DNA from: Fibrobacter sp.
GTDB taxonomy: Bacteria > Fibrobacterota > Fibrobacteria > Fibrobacterales > Fibrobacteraceae
Reading direction: 5' to 3'
Assembly (NCBI GenBank): GCA_017503015.1
Contig: JAFVTX010000046.1
Coordinates: 1-64,000, forward strand
Length of the DNA stretch: 64,000 bases
Positions 33,389 to 37,141 of the stretch are shown here, piece after piece (positions within the stretch are counted from its first letter, which is position 1; each line of letters starts with the position of its first letter). The position numbers were made by a program, and so were the translations under genes. The notes under the pieces were generated by a model. That model saw only the letters and a list, made by a program, of their open reading frames with translations. It had not been told where the DNA came from and searched no databases.

Positions 33389-35337
33389 TACATTGCCTCG
33401 CTTGTGGTGAGTTCGTCCCAGAGGTCGGTGCTGGGCTTTTCTTCCACGTCGCCGTCGAAGATGTTGTAGATGTCGGCATTACCGACCTTCTTGTCTGCCT
33501 TGAGTTCCTGTGCGTCCTTGTCGTGGCGCGTGAGGTGCGTGGGGCCTTGCGGCACGAAGATGTCCTGCGGGCCCACGGCGCTGCGCATGGCGCTGATGTA
33601 GTCCGCCGCCTGCTCCTTCGTCATGTCGGGGCATATTTCCTTCAGGAGCTTTTCTTCGTGGCGCTTGCGGGCGACACCTTCTGCAATCTGCGCCTTGCCC
33701 ACGGCATCGTCGTCCTTGACCATGGCACCAACGGCGCTCTGCAATGTGCATTCGCCGATAAGCTTCTTGTTAAGGTCGTAGCACCAGGCGGTGCGCATGT
33801 CGTCGGGGTCGTAGCGGAAGATGACCTCGCGGCCCTTCCATACCGGCATCCATTCCGCCCAGTACCAGGTGTCGAGCTGTGCCAGGTGGAAGCCCATGTG
33901 CATGATGCGGCCCGACACGGTGCGGCTCACCAGCATGGAGAGCGTTTCCTTCGAGACGCGGCGCATGGGTTCGCGCTTGACGATTTCTTCGTTCCAGAGC
34001 TGAGAACGCGTTTTGCCGTTGTGGTGCTTTCCCTGGCAAGGGAGTCCGGGGAACACGTTCTGCATGTAGTCCTGCGCCATGTCGTAGAACTCTTCCCAGG
34101 TAAGGAAGTTCCCGCTCTTGAGCACGCCCTTCAGGGGCTCCGGCTTCTCGACCACGGTGCCGCCCTTGAAGCTGTTGAACATACGGTCAAAGCCGTTTTT
34201 AATGATGAGGAAGTTGCGTTCAATGATCTTCGCGCGGGCGTTACGCACGATGGCGAAGTGCATCTTGATACCGAGACGGCTTGCCATGGATTCAGCATAC
34301 TGCTCGTCTTCCACGATCTGGTGGCCACGGCTTTGGCCGGAGAAGTCGCGGTTACGGTATTCGCGACCGTTGTCCACGTAGATTTCTTCCGGAAGACCGT
34401 AACGCTCGATGCCGTGACGCATGGCGCGGAGCGTGTTCTCGGTACCCGGGGCGTCGTGGTGCAGGCACCAGCCCATGGGCATGTAGGTCTTGAAGTCCAT
34501 GAAGAGCGTGATGTAGCAGGTGGCGGGCTTTTCCTGCCCCTGCACCTTCACGAACACGTCTCACGTGCGGGTATCGCCCACCCATACCTGCCCCGCCTTG
34601 AGGTCGGAGTAGTCGCGGTCCAGGTGGAAACCCTTGTTGTCGTAGAACTTCTTCTTGCCTTCGCGGGCAAAGTAGATGACATCGGGTGCGAACTCGCTCT
34701 TGAGCCTACGATTGAAAGCTGACTTGCTCGGGAACTCGCTCTGGTCCTTCACGTCGCCGCGTTCCATGGCCTTGCCGAGCGCAATCATCCAGCTGGAGAA
34801 TACGCTTATCTTGTTCGCGGTCAAGTAGGCGTTCTTGAAATCCTCGAACCAGGCGTCGCGCACGGTGGAGTGCATCACCTCGCGGTGGTTGATGAGCGCA
34901 ATCTTCCCGCACTCGCCGACCTGCGAACGCTGACGGTAGATGCTCTTGATGCTCGTCTTCATTTCGGGGTGTGCGCGGTTCCAGTCGTCCACGAAACGCC
35001 CGAGTTCCTTGGTGCCCGTGATGCCTTCGCACTTCAAGAGGATGAGCGTCCACTTGTCGAAGTTCTTCTTCGCGCGGTCGGTGGCGCGGTCGTAACTCCT
35101 GATGACCGTTTCCACGTCCTCGGACTGGACCTGGACTTCCGTGCTTTCGGGGAGTGTCGCCATGACATAGCGGTCGGAGGCTTCCTTGGGGAGACTCCGC
35201 ACGTTAATCTTGAGCACCTTCCTGCCGCCTTCGTCGTCCCAGCGGTATTCCCACATGGAGGCGTTGCGGCGCACCTGCCTCTCGGAAATTCCCAGGAGCT
35301 CGGAAGCCTGCGTTGAACTAATCCAGATCGGTTGCAT
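33388..35337 (-). pseudogene. muA: MuA transposase, split by an in-frame TGA
   Basis: One frame of 649 codons (Mu MuA is 663) is broken by a TGA at 34561-34563. The N-terminal helix-turn-helix (SSTQASELLGISERQVRRN) is followed by DNA-binding domains. The first catalytic Asp (GDTRT, residue 255) lies just before the stop. After it come DVFVKVQ, the second Asp region (YVDNGREYRNRDF) and the Glu region (KIIERNFLIIKNGFD), so all three DDE residues exist but on opposite sides of the TGA. A one-base change from TGG (Trp) explains it. A GTG at 34555-34557 could restart a fragment that would lack the first Asp. Unless read through, the transposase is dead. Confidence 0.85.
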
Positions 35338-35543: not shown

Positions 35544-36359
35544 TTAGTTCATCAGGCTGTCGATGCCCTTCTTGACAAGGAACTTCAGGAAATCCTTGTT
35601 GGAAGGGAAGGTCGTGCCGTGTTCGAAAAGGTTCTGCTTCGCGGCGTTGATTTTCTCGGTCAGGGGCTTCGGGAAGGTCATCGACGGCATCATGTTGGGG
35701 AACAGTTCGCATTGGACGGACTCTTCGGCAGGGGCGACCGTCGTGGCGTCGGTGGCCGCCGCGTAGTCGATTTTGCGCTTGACGGTGTACTTGCCCGTCT
35801 TGCGGATGGTCGGGAGCACGTCTTCCACCACCCAGCGCTCGAACCTGACCGCGTCGGGCATGCGGCTGCGCATGATGAGGCGGTAGAGGTCGGGCTCGTT
35901 GATGGCGATCATCGCCTGCTTGCCGCCCTTGGTGTCCACCGTAATCTTCTTGGCTAGCTCGTTTGTGCCGTCAAGGTCCTTGCTGTCATAGACCTTGTTG
36001 CAGTGTTTCTTGATGACTGCCGCCGTGTCCTTTGTATAGCCGAGAATCTTGCAGATGTCGTCGGCCACGAACCACGCGTTCTTCTGATCGTCGAGAACCA
36101 TTCGGATTGCGGTGTCGTTGAAGATGCGATAACGGAGTCGCAGGGCCCCGGACATGGTCGGGTCAAGGTCGTCTTCCTTGACGCCGGTTTCCCTGGCGAT
36201 GCAGTGGGCGGAACTGCCGGAGTATTCGGCGGGAACGATGTCGCCGGACTGGGAGTCCGTGTCAATAGTCGGGGTTTCCACTTCGTCCAAAGGGGCAACC
36301 GTTTCGGTTGACCCTTCGAGGGTGGTTTCGGGTTCTTCGTCGAAAATTTTCTTGATCAT
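35544..36359 (-). CDS. Bro-N family antirepressor
   Basis: 271 residues. The BRO-N domain covers about 55-165: NDTAIRMVLDDQKNAWFVADDICKILGY, then VDTKGGKQAMIAINEPDLYRLIMRSR and ERWVVEDVLPTIRKTGKY. The last 100 residues are a different helical domain (PLTEKINAAKQNLFEHGTTFP). Such proteins counter a phage repressor and promote lytic growth. It is the second early gene, downstream of the divergent repressor, in the right place for that role. Starts on the preceding stop (TAATG). Confidence 0.85.
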   Translation of the reverse strand: MIKKIFDEEPETTLEGSTETVAPLDEVETPTIDTDSQSGDIVPAEYSGSSAHCIARETGVKEDDLDPTMSGALRLRYRIFNDTAIRMVLDDQKNAWFVADDICKILGYTKDTAAVIKKHCNKVYDSKDLDGTNELAKKITVDTKGGKQAMIAINEPDLYRLIMRSRMPDAVRFERWVVEDVLPTIRKTGKYTVKRKIDYAAATDATTVAPAEESVQCELFPNMMPSMTFPKPLTEKINAAKQNLFEHGTTFPSNKDFLKFLVKKGIDSLMN

Positions 36360-36541
36360 TATGCTACTCCTTTGGTGGTGAGTCCCAGGTCCTTGAGGAT
36401 GGGGGTAAGCTGGTTGTTGGTGCGGTAGCCAGTGGCTACTTCCCTTATGTATTGGGCGCTATAGGGCTTTCCGGCGATTTCGGAAACCCTTTCGGCGGCC
36501 TTGCGCCATGAGAATTTCGTCACTGTAAGATTTTTATCCAT
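36359..36541 (-). CDS. Small DNA-binding regulator (Ner/Cro-like candidate)
   Basis: 60 residues, first gene of the early operon. The segment SAQYIREVATGYRTNNQLTPIL has the pattern of a lambda-type helix-turn-helix. Its divergent neighbour is the repressor gene, and the operator dyad lies between. A Ner-like role (negative regulation of both promoters) is an inference from place and size. Confidence 0.5.
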   Translation of the reverse strand: MDKNLTVTKFSWRKAAERVSEIAGKPYSAQYIREVATGYRTNNQLTPILKDLGLTTKGVA

Positions 36542-36572: not shown

Positions 36573-36627
36573 TGTAGTGGTGGTTAATCACTACTACATT
36601 CCAAAATTAATCAAAGATTAATCAAAT
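36573..36627. promoter_or_regulatory. Early/repressor operator region
   Basis: TGTAGTGGTG (36573-36582) and CACTACTACA (36589-36598) are 10-bp arms with one mismatch around GTTAAT. TTAATCA occurs in the dyad (36584) and again at 36607 and 36618. The region is 84 bases long and divides the leftward early operon from the rightward repressor gene, so it must hold both promoters. Confidence 0.6.
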
Positions 36628-37141
36628 GTCAAGAGAAAATTCAAAAAAGATTAATTTTTCTTCAGAAAATGTTCGAAATTTTGCCTCCGAGCGGTTTGGA
36701 ACCCTGAAAAAACTTGCTGAAGCTATAGGCGTAAGTCAGCCAAACCTAACGCAAAGCCTATCTGGTAAGCGTCCTTTTGGCGCATCTTGGCGCGAAAGAC
36801 TTGAAGATGTCGGCTTTTTTGAATGGCTTTCGCAAAAAAACGGCGATTTAATCAAAGATGAATTAATCAAAGATTCCTCAAATGTCAAGGGGGAATCTGA
36901 AAATAGTGGAATTTTAGACATTTCAGGCGCTCTTGAGCTTTCGAACACGCCCGCAAGCCGCCTCGCCCAGCTCGTGGGGGTAAGCCCCGCCACGCTCGAC
37001 TCCTGGCGGCAGGGCACCGCCACGCCCACTGTCGAGGAGCTCTCCCGCCTCTTCAACCAGGTCGTCGCCCTCGCCCTGAGCTCCCGCCACGCCGCCACCA
37101 CGCCCGAAGCAGAGAACCCACCCGCCCAAGCTACCGCGTAA
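36626..37141 (+). CDS. Chimeric double helix-turn-helix repressor
   Basis: 171 residues in two parts. Residues 12-75 are an AT-rich-coded HTH domain (FGTLKKLAEAIGVSQPNLTQSLSG). Residues 100-150 are coded by markedly GC-rich DNA and form a second Xre-like HTH (TPASRLAQLVGVSPATLDSWRQGTATPTVEEL), ending in an Ala/Pro tail. The junction carries a copy of the gene's own upstream region (36861-36891 resembles 36605-36635 at about 27 of 31 positions). It is divergent from the early operon, so it is the likely lysogeny repressor. The mosaic structure suggests domain exchange. Confidence 0.7.
   Translation: MSRENSKKINFSSENVRNFASERFGTLKKLAEAIGVSQPNLTQSLSGKRPFGASWRERLEDVGFFEWLSQKNGDLIKDELIKDSSNVKGESENSGILDISGALELSNTPASRLAQLVGVSPATLDSWRQGTATPTVEELSRLFNQVVALALSSRHAATTPEAENPPAQATA
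36848..36891 (+). repeat. Operator-like repeats inside the repressor gene
   Basis: TTAATCAAAG occurs at 36848-36857 and 36863-36872, then TCAAATGTCAAG. This copies the operator and start region of the same gene (36607-36635). It lies at the border between the AT-rich and GC-rich halves. Confidence 0.75.

Follow-up and report, generated by a model that had tools for sequence, protein, structure and literature searches.

The lac operator O3 is located at the distal end of lacI; the operators of the phage Mu repressor c lie outside coding sequence and double as a transposition enhancer; and in lambdoid immunity regions the repressor specificity and the operators swap together. LacI was reported to roadblock its own gene at its own operator O3, producing truncated transcripts (PMC3711431), and DNA loops strengthen roadblocks (PMC5477534). 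The repressor gp33 of mycobacteriophage BPs has an operator between the -10 and -35 elements of the early promoter, along with a second operator tied to repressor expression; the account of L5-type phages given in the same source describes stoperators as repressor sites in transcribed DNA that block elongation (PMC4557955). Our literature search found nothing directly relevant on Fibrobacter Mu-like repressors or on intragenic phage operators.

The window, i.e., the whole 64-kb stretch of Fibrobacter DNA that was analysed, includes a Mu-like Fibrobacter prophage with the following genes at its immunity locus:

36626–37141, plus strand: repressor gene (open reading frame), 171 aa, two helix-turn-helix (HTH) domains and a disordered linker.
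36662–36808, plus strand: coding region for HTH1, the variable specificity domain (from Pfam, comparison and AF2).
36920–37096, plus strand: HTH2 domain, constant across most operator classes (from Pfam, comparison and AF2).
36359–36541, minus strand: small Ner-like early protein, first gene of the leftward operon (from position and conservation).

To the left of the repressor gene, on the other strand, are the Ner-like gene (no Pfam match to its protein), a BRO/Ant-type antirepressor gene, and a Mu-type transposase gene (Mu-transpos_C and PHROG 310; a DDE enzyme with the Mu C-terminal domain), so that the early operon is divergent from the repressor. The locus thus resembles that of Mu repressor c (O1–O3, Ner) in having a repressor divergent from a Ner-like gene and transposase operon, with operators over the early promoter; it differs in the putative second operator inside the gene and in a protein with two HTH domains. 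The transposase gene of the window has an in-frame TGA (34561–34563, minus strand; codon 259, just after the GDTRT motif) at a position occupied by a tryptophan codon in every relative examined. Unless this is a sequence error, the prophage in the window is probably unable to transpose.

Pfam placed HTH_3 at repressor residues 108–142 and, below cut-off, a YdaS-like HTH at 21–53; both HTH_3 and HTH_26 scored above cut-off, giving the repressor an HTH domain of the Cro/C1 kind, and the PHROG match was to transcriptional regulators. The AF2 model, whose mean pLDDT was only 61, served for domain limits only: helices at 13–61 (HTH1) and 99–157 (HTH2), with residues 74–96 at pLDDT below 50. A structure search returned generic HTH neighbours (HigA, C.Kpn2I), none at E ≤ 0.001, and the INPHARED annotated phage records contained no relative. 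Nearly all of the repressors end in a tail of small residues (PPAQATA, SKNVAG, KQVG or AAAG; 37121–37138 in the window), which by analogy with the Mu repressor might be a degradation tag.

The sites considered below are:

36574–36597, no strand: palindrome GTAGTGGT..ACTACTAC (of the GTAGTGGT..ACCACTAC type), kept across classes; left border of the exchanged cassette.
36604–36632, minus strand: early promoter Pe, leftward; -35 TTGACA at 36632–36627, 17-nt spacer, -10-like TAATTT at 36609–36604.
36607–36621, plus strand: operator O1, TTAATCAAAGATTAA, in the Pe spacer (pattern scan; same position in every class).
36640–36654, plus strand: operator O2, weaker (3 mismatches), upstream of the Pe -35 box over repressor codons 5–10.
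36848–36862, plus strand: putative intragenic operator O3a, TTAATCAAAGATGAA (pattern scan, covariation, synonymous constraint).
36863–36877, plus strand: putative intragenic operator O3b, TTAATCAAAGATTCC (pattern scan, synonymous constraint).
36860–36888, minus strand: promoter-like copy; TTGACA at 36888–36883, 17-nt spacer, TAATTC at 36865–36860; clear only in classes A and D.

A first-pass annotation had described 36605–36635 as copied at 36861–36891 with about four differences, at the point where AT-rich HTH1 coding DNA gives way to GC-rich HTH2 coding DNA. The repeat search agreed, with 3 differences over those 31 nt and a real extent somewhat greater, 43 nt (36605–36647 versus 36861–36903; offset 256; 35 positions identical, or 81%), and windowed GC rose from 0.37 (36850–36949) to 0.76 (36950–37049) as predicted. 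The repeat score was reached in 1 of 1000 shuffles preserving protein and codon usage, and the match between operator and linker in 0 of 200 dinucleotide shuffles of the linker. The operator core TTAATCAAAGAT occurs exactly three times in the window, at 36607, 36848 and 36863 (36607–36621 pairing with both 36848–36862 and 36863–36877), and no further occurrence was found in the 64 kb even allowing one mismatch; the internal site therefore consists of two sites 15 bp apart. Many dispersed copies, as described for the L5 genome in the source cited above, were not found in the window, where the core is confined to the repressor locus, and a stoperator network was accordingly rejected as a candidate.

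The start codon region had also been described as copied along with the operator. In the copy, however, the ATG (36882) does not share the repressor's reading frame, and the TGTCAA at the repressor start codon is TTGACA on the opposite strand, where it forms the -35 box for leftward early transcription; the copied unit is thus operator plus promoter box, not start codon as such. Given this TTGACA, 17 nt and an A/T-rich -10-like hexamer, O1 fills the spacer of the early promoter. Pe scored below the threshold of a generic promoter scan; from class to class, its TGTCAA keeps a near-constant distance of 28–30 nt to the end of the palindrome before it, except in L067, which has a different upstream region, and a class-specific half-site is present at +14 to +33 from the -35 box (the O2 position) in nearly all genes. 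An operator between -10 and -35 together with a second one recalls BPs, whereas in BPs the second operator, ORep, is intergenic and the element inside the repressor gene is attP, not an operator (PMC4557955). The palindrome, which separates the early promoter from the Ner-like gene, is likely a site for a constant protein, perhaps the Ner-like protein or HTH2.

Relatives were sought in the genus, IMG/VR and GTDB genomes, and the constant C-domain was present at 26 distinct loci, of which 25 were intact. A less biased sample, searched by the Ner-like neighbour and by class B HTH1 alone, added repressors with other C-termini, and the total was 34 distinct intact repressor genes in about eight operator classes with several unrelated C-termini. 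In these 34 distinct intact genes of the phage group, the stretch just after HTH1 contains the gene's own promoter operator. The promoter words are TTAATCAAAGATTAA in class A, AAACAATGTTT in A2/A3, AACATTTGTTGAT in B, ATAACAT in C1, TAACAC in C2 and TTTAAACAATAGTTTT in D, and in each class the own-class word recurs in the linker just before the C-domain (e.g., CTAACACAAATTGTGTTAG in L012 and ATCAACAAATGTTGAT in L009); the promoter operator of L011 was entered by hand. The same rule was obeyed with entirely different C-termini: four class E genes (L099, L115, L118, L120) encode single-HTH repressors that lack HTH2, and downstream of HTH1 they have CAAGTAGTTATA, exact or with one mismatch, in agreement with their promoter TATAACTACTTGGTTATA; L086 and L087, with a class B HTH1 and a short different tail, kept the operator; and L111 and L112 obeyed the rule too. 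Class A2 gained one more gene, L055.

L135, a related repressor found in a different genus of the family, had no clear linker copy, and the own-operator rule may not reach as far as that genus. L135 (1435–1827) encodes a single-HTH repressor beside a divergent Ner-like gene, with an inverted repeat in the promoter. Two candidates were dropped from the set, L029 as a HipB-like protein and L136 as an HTH protein without a Ner-like neighbour. The class A repressor of L067 is on a contig labelled as an Erysipelotrichaceae MAG, with an upstream region that has neither Ner nor palindrome; mis-binning or a rearranged prophage is the probable cause.

The pairing of promoter operators with linkers was assessed by permutation. 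The operators were defined by eye from the promoter regions before permutation, so that the class definitions are not independent of inspection. With one gene per class in a 7-class set, the true pairing was the unique best of 5040. For 11 representative genes, 0 of 200,000 random operator-linker pairings reached the true total, a p-value that treats partly shared history as independent, the classes being related to differing degrees; one assignment scored half a point above the true pairing and, by the matrix, it swaps the C2-type L012 and L111. The linker match exceeded those to the HTH core and to the C-domain in 11 of 11 representatives. Matches for the class C2 linkers were weak by ungapped score (p 0.03–0.065); both linkers hold the class half-site palindrome.

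Class A permitted a look at synonymous variation, counted per codon in nine genes that share ancestry. Such variation was seen in 35 of the 50 scorable HTH1 codons (13–66) versus 1 of 12 linker operator codons (residues 75–83 and 86–88; Fisher p 1.3e-4), and the sole varying linker codon coincides with the L004/L067 insertion. Codons 4–12, which lie over O2, were likewise invariant. The linker operator codons of class A are almost frozen at synonymous sites.

The covariation by class and the frozen synonymous sites in class A argue strongly for what the first-pass annotation had suggested, that the internal sites serve as an extra operator of the same repressor. The site travels with the DNA-reading domain and very probably serves self-control, and we regard O3 as very likely a used operator. 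The likeness to LacI and lac O3, an own operator inside the transcribed repressor gene, is drawn here by sequence and covariation only. The lac O3 system has one specificity, whereas the site described here comes after the DNA-binding domain and changes along with it over about eight classes.

Comparison of phages sharing one backbone defined one further feature:

36600–36925, no strand: immunity cassette of O1, O2, HTH1 and O3 (identity profiles of phage pairs on one backbone; borders approximate).

Between the window (class A) and L045 (class D), the Ner proteins are identical and the Ant proteins nearly so; at the DNA level the two phages hardly differ as far as the palindrome, are unlike over O1–HTH1–O3, and come close to identity again in the C-domain. 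The same pattern was found for L007/L059, L011/L059, L051/L053, L061/L064 and L061/L008, and on the left side only for L005/L046. Near-identical flanks around an unlike O1–HTH1–O3 mean that the operators at both ends and HTH1 move together, and because O3 is inside the exchanged block, a swap of HTH1 brings matching operators at both ends, making the block a self-contained immunity cassette. As in the lambdoid phages, specificity and operators are exchanged jointly; the difference is that the exchange border here cuts through the repressor gene and leaves the C-terminal domain constant. A 37-residue HTH2-type tail downstream of the class E repressor in G008 and G034 would fit a swap with its right border inside the HTH2 coding region. 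A remnant of an HTH2-type C-terminus is present downstream of the class E single-HTH repressor in L013 (1501–1605) and L014 (1501–1614), where it resembles a swap border that fell within the former gene.

The best overall explanation, which we consider probable, is that the repeat works as an operator within the gene of a Mu-like phage repressor. The sequences themselves show its presence and covariation, the synonymous constraint, the exchange of cassettes and the deletion between the repeats; binding, roadblock and looping are predicted on that footing. HTH1 would read a class-specific DNA word at O1, between the Pe -35 and -10, and at O2 just beyond; the same word appears again as O3 directly after the HTH1 coding sequence, where the flexible protein linker accepts almost any encoded peptide. 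Judging from the operator position in the promoter spacer, repressor on O1/O2 would shut the leftward lytic promoter, and repressor on O3 would stop RNA polymerase inside the repressor's own gene, a negative feedback. Repressor bound at O3 may also loop to O1/O2, 216–295 bp away. We give about an even chance that roadblock-type autoregulation is the main role of O3, and place it first because a roadblock needs no fixed distance while the O1–O3 distance varies.

The alternative that O3 serves mainly for DNA looping to O1/O2, tightening repression of the early promoter with no roadblock role, is possible, though clearly the less favoured of the two. Two site clusters about 240 bp apart resemble those of looping repressors such as lambda CI (PMC8053113). 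The distance, however, differs by about 50 bp between members of a single class, B (243 versus 295), and by eye the helical phasing had no clear pattern over 216–295 bp, which argues against a strict loop.

It was also considered, as a doubtful addition, that the paired operators are recombination sites as well, with loss of HTH1 in one step and the copies kept alike by gene conversion. In the viral contigs L058 (2940–3020) and L060 (2157–2240), the promoter side of O1 is joined to the linker side of O3, HTH1 is missing exactly between the repeats, and the C-domain is out of frame with the usual ATG; repressor function has probably been lost in both. The two share 570 bp at 96% in contigs that are otherwise different, so that a single event, later spread by recombination, may account for both; a collapse during assembly is another possible source of the form. 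In class A genes with the longer copy, the promoter and linker copies agree in a dinucleotide near the -35 box (TC or GT), although in the linker it belongs to no intact half-site. Such agreement, seen in few lineages, would be expected if gene conversion acts between the copies.

Rather improbable is the explanation that the copy is a second repressor-controlled leftward promoter, from which RNA antisense to the repressor would be made. Most class A linkers and those of class D retain TTGACA-17-TAATTC, and the GTC and AAG codons are invariant in 8 of 8 class A genes; yet the -10 is without its terminal T, and classes B, C2 and E, which keep the operator, show no evident promoter boxes. An antisense promoter in classes A and D only is possible.

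The first-pass annotation had taken the repeat for the relic of a recombination event in which two repressor genes were joined at their operators and their DNA-binding domains became fused. Such a reading accords with a repeat that brackets HTH1 at the GC change, and with L058 and L060, where recombination between the repeats did take place, as deletion of HTH1 and not as gene fusion. It is now largely refuted, and we consider it quite unlikely. The operator follows HTH1 in the one-domain relatives without HTH2 (L086, L087, L099, L115, L118, L120), so the repeat is no scar of a fusion; the linker version is specific to each operator class, which one ancestral scar would not explain; and the synonymous sites of class A are frozen, whereas a scar would decay. 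Separate one-domain class A HTH1 precursor genes did not turn up in 80 genomes of the genus, which gave only two-domain genes. Two-domain homologues without the repeat, which that annotation had named as counting against its reading, were not found either: the copy was present in 25 of 25 distinct intact homologues of the first collection.

A Mu-like transposition enhancer (IAS) read by the transposase would suit a Mu-like phage but is considered very improbable, since the N-terminus of the transposase does not change with operator class and Pfam found no HTH1-like domain in the transposase. Chance, or constraint on the linker peptide, is scarcely credible: AT-rich DNA eases short matches and LIKDELIKD is conserved in class A, but from one class to another the linker encodes unrelated peptides, and its DNA still agrees with the promoter operator of the class concerned.

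The usual description of a phage immunity group is a repressor with operators that lie outside its gene. Read as an intragenic operator, the repeat means that here the operator is written twice, in the promoter and in the coding sequence beside the DNA-binding domain, and that the pair changes with specificity. The collection would amount to a natural catalogue in which repressor domains and operators come in matched pairs, useful for tests of recognition rules, and comparison across it would give a clean case for asking why a repressor binds inside the gene that encodes it. If the paired operators are also recombination sites, the operator would combine two roles, as a regulatory site and as the border of a specificity domain that can be excised, and loss of HTH1 would yield an immunity-blind, possibly virulent form of the phage; L058 and L060 suggest that such one-step loss of immunity control occurs in nature.
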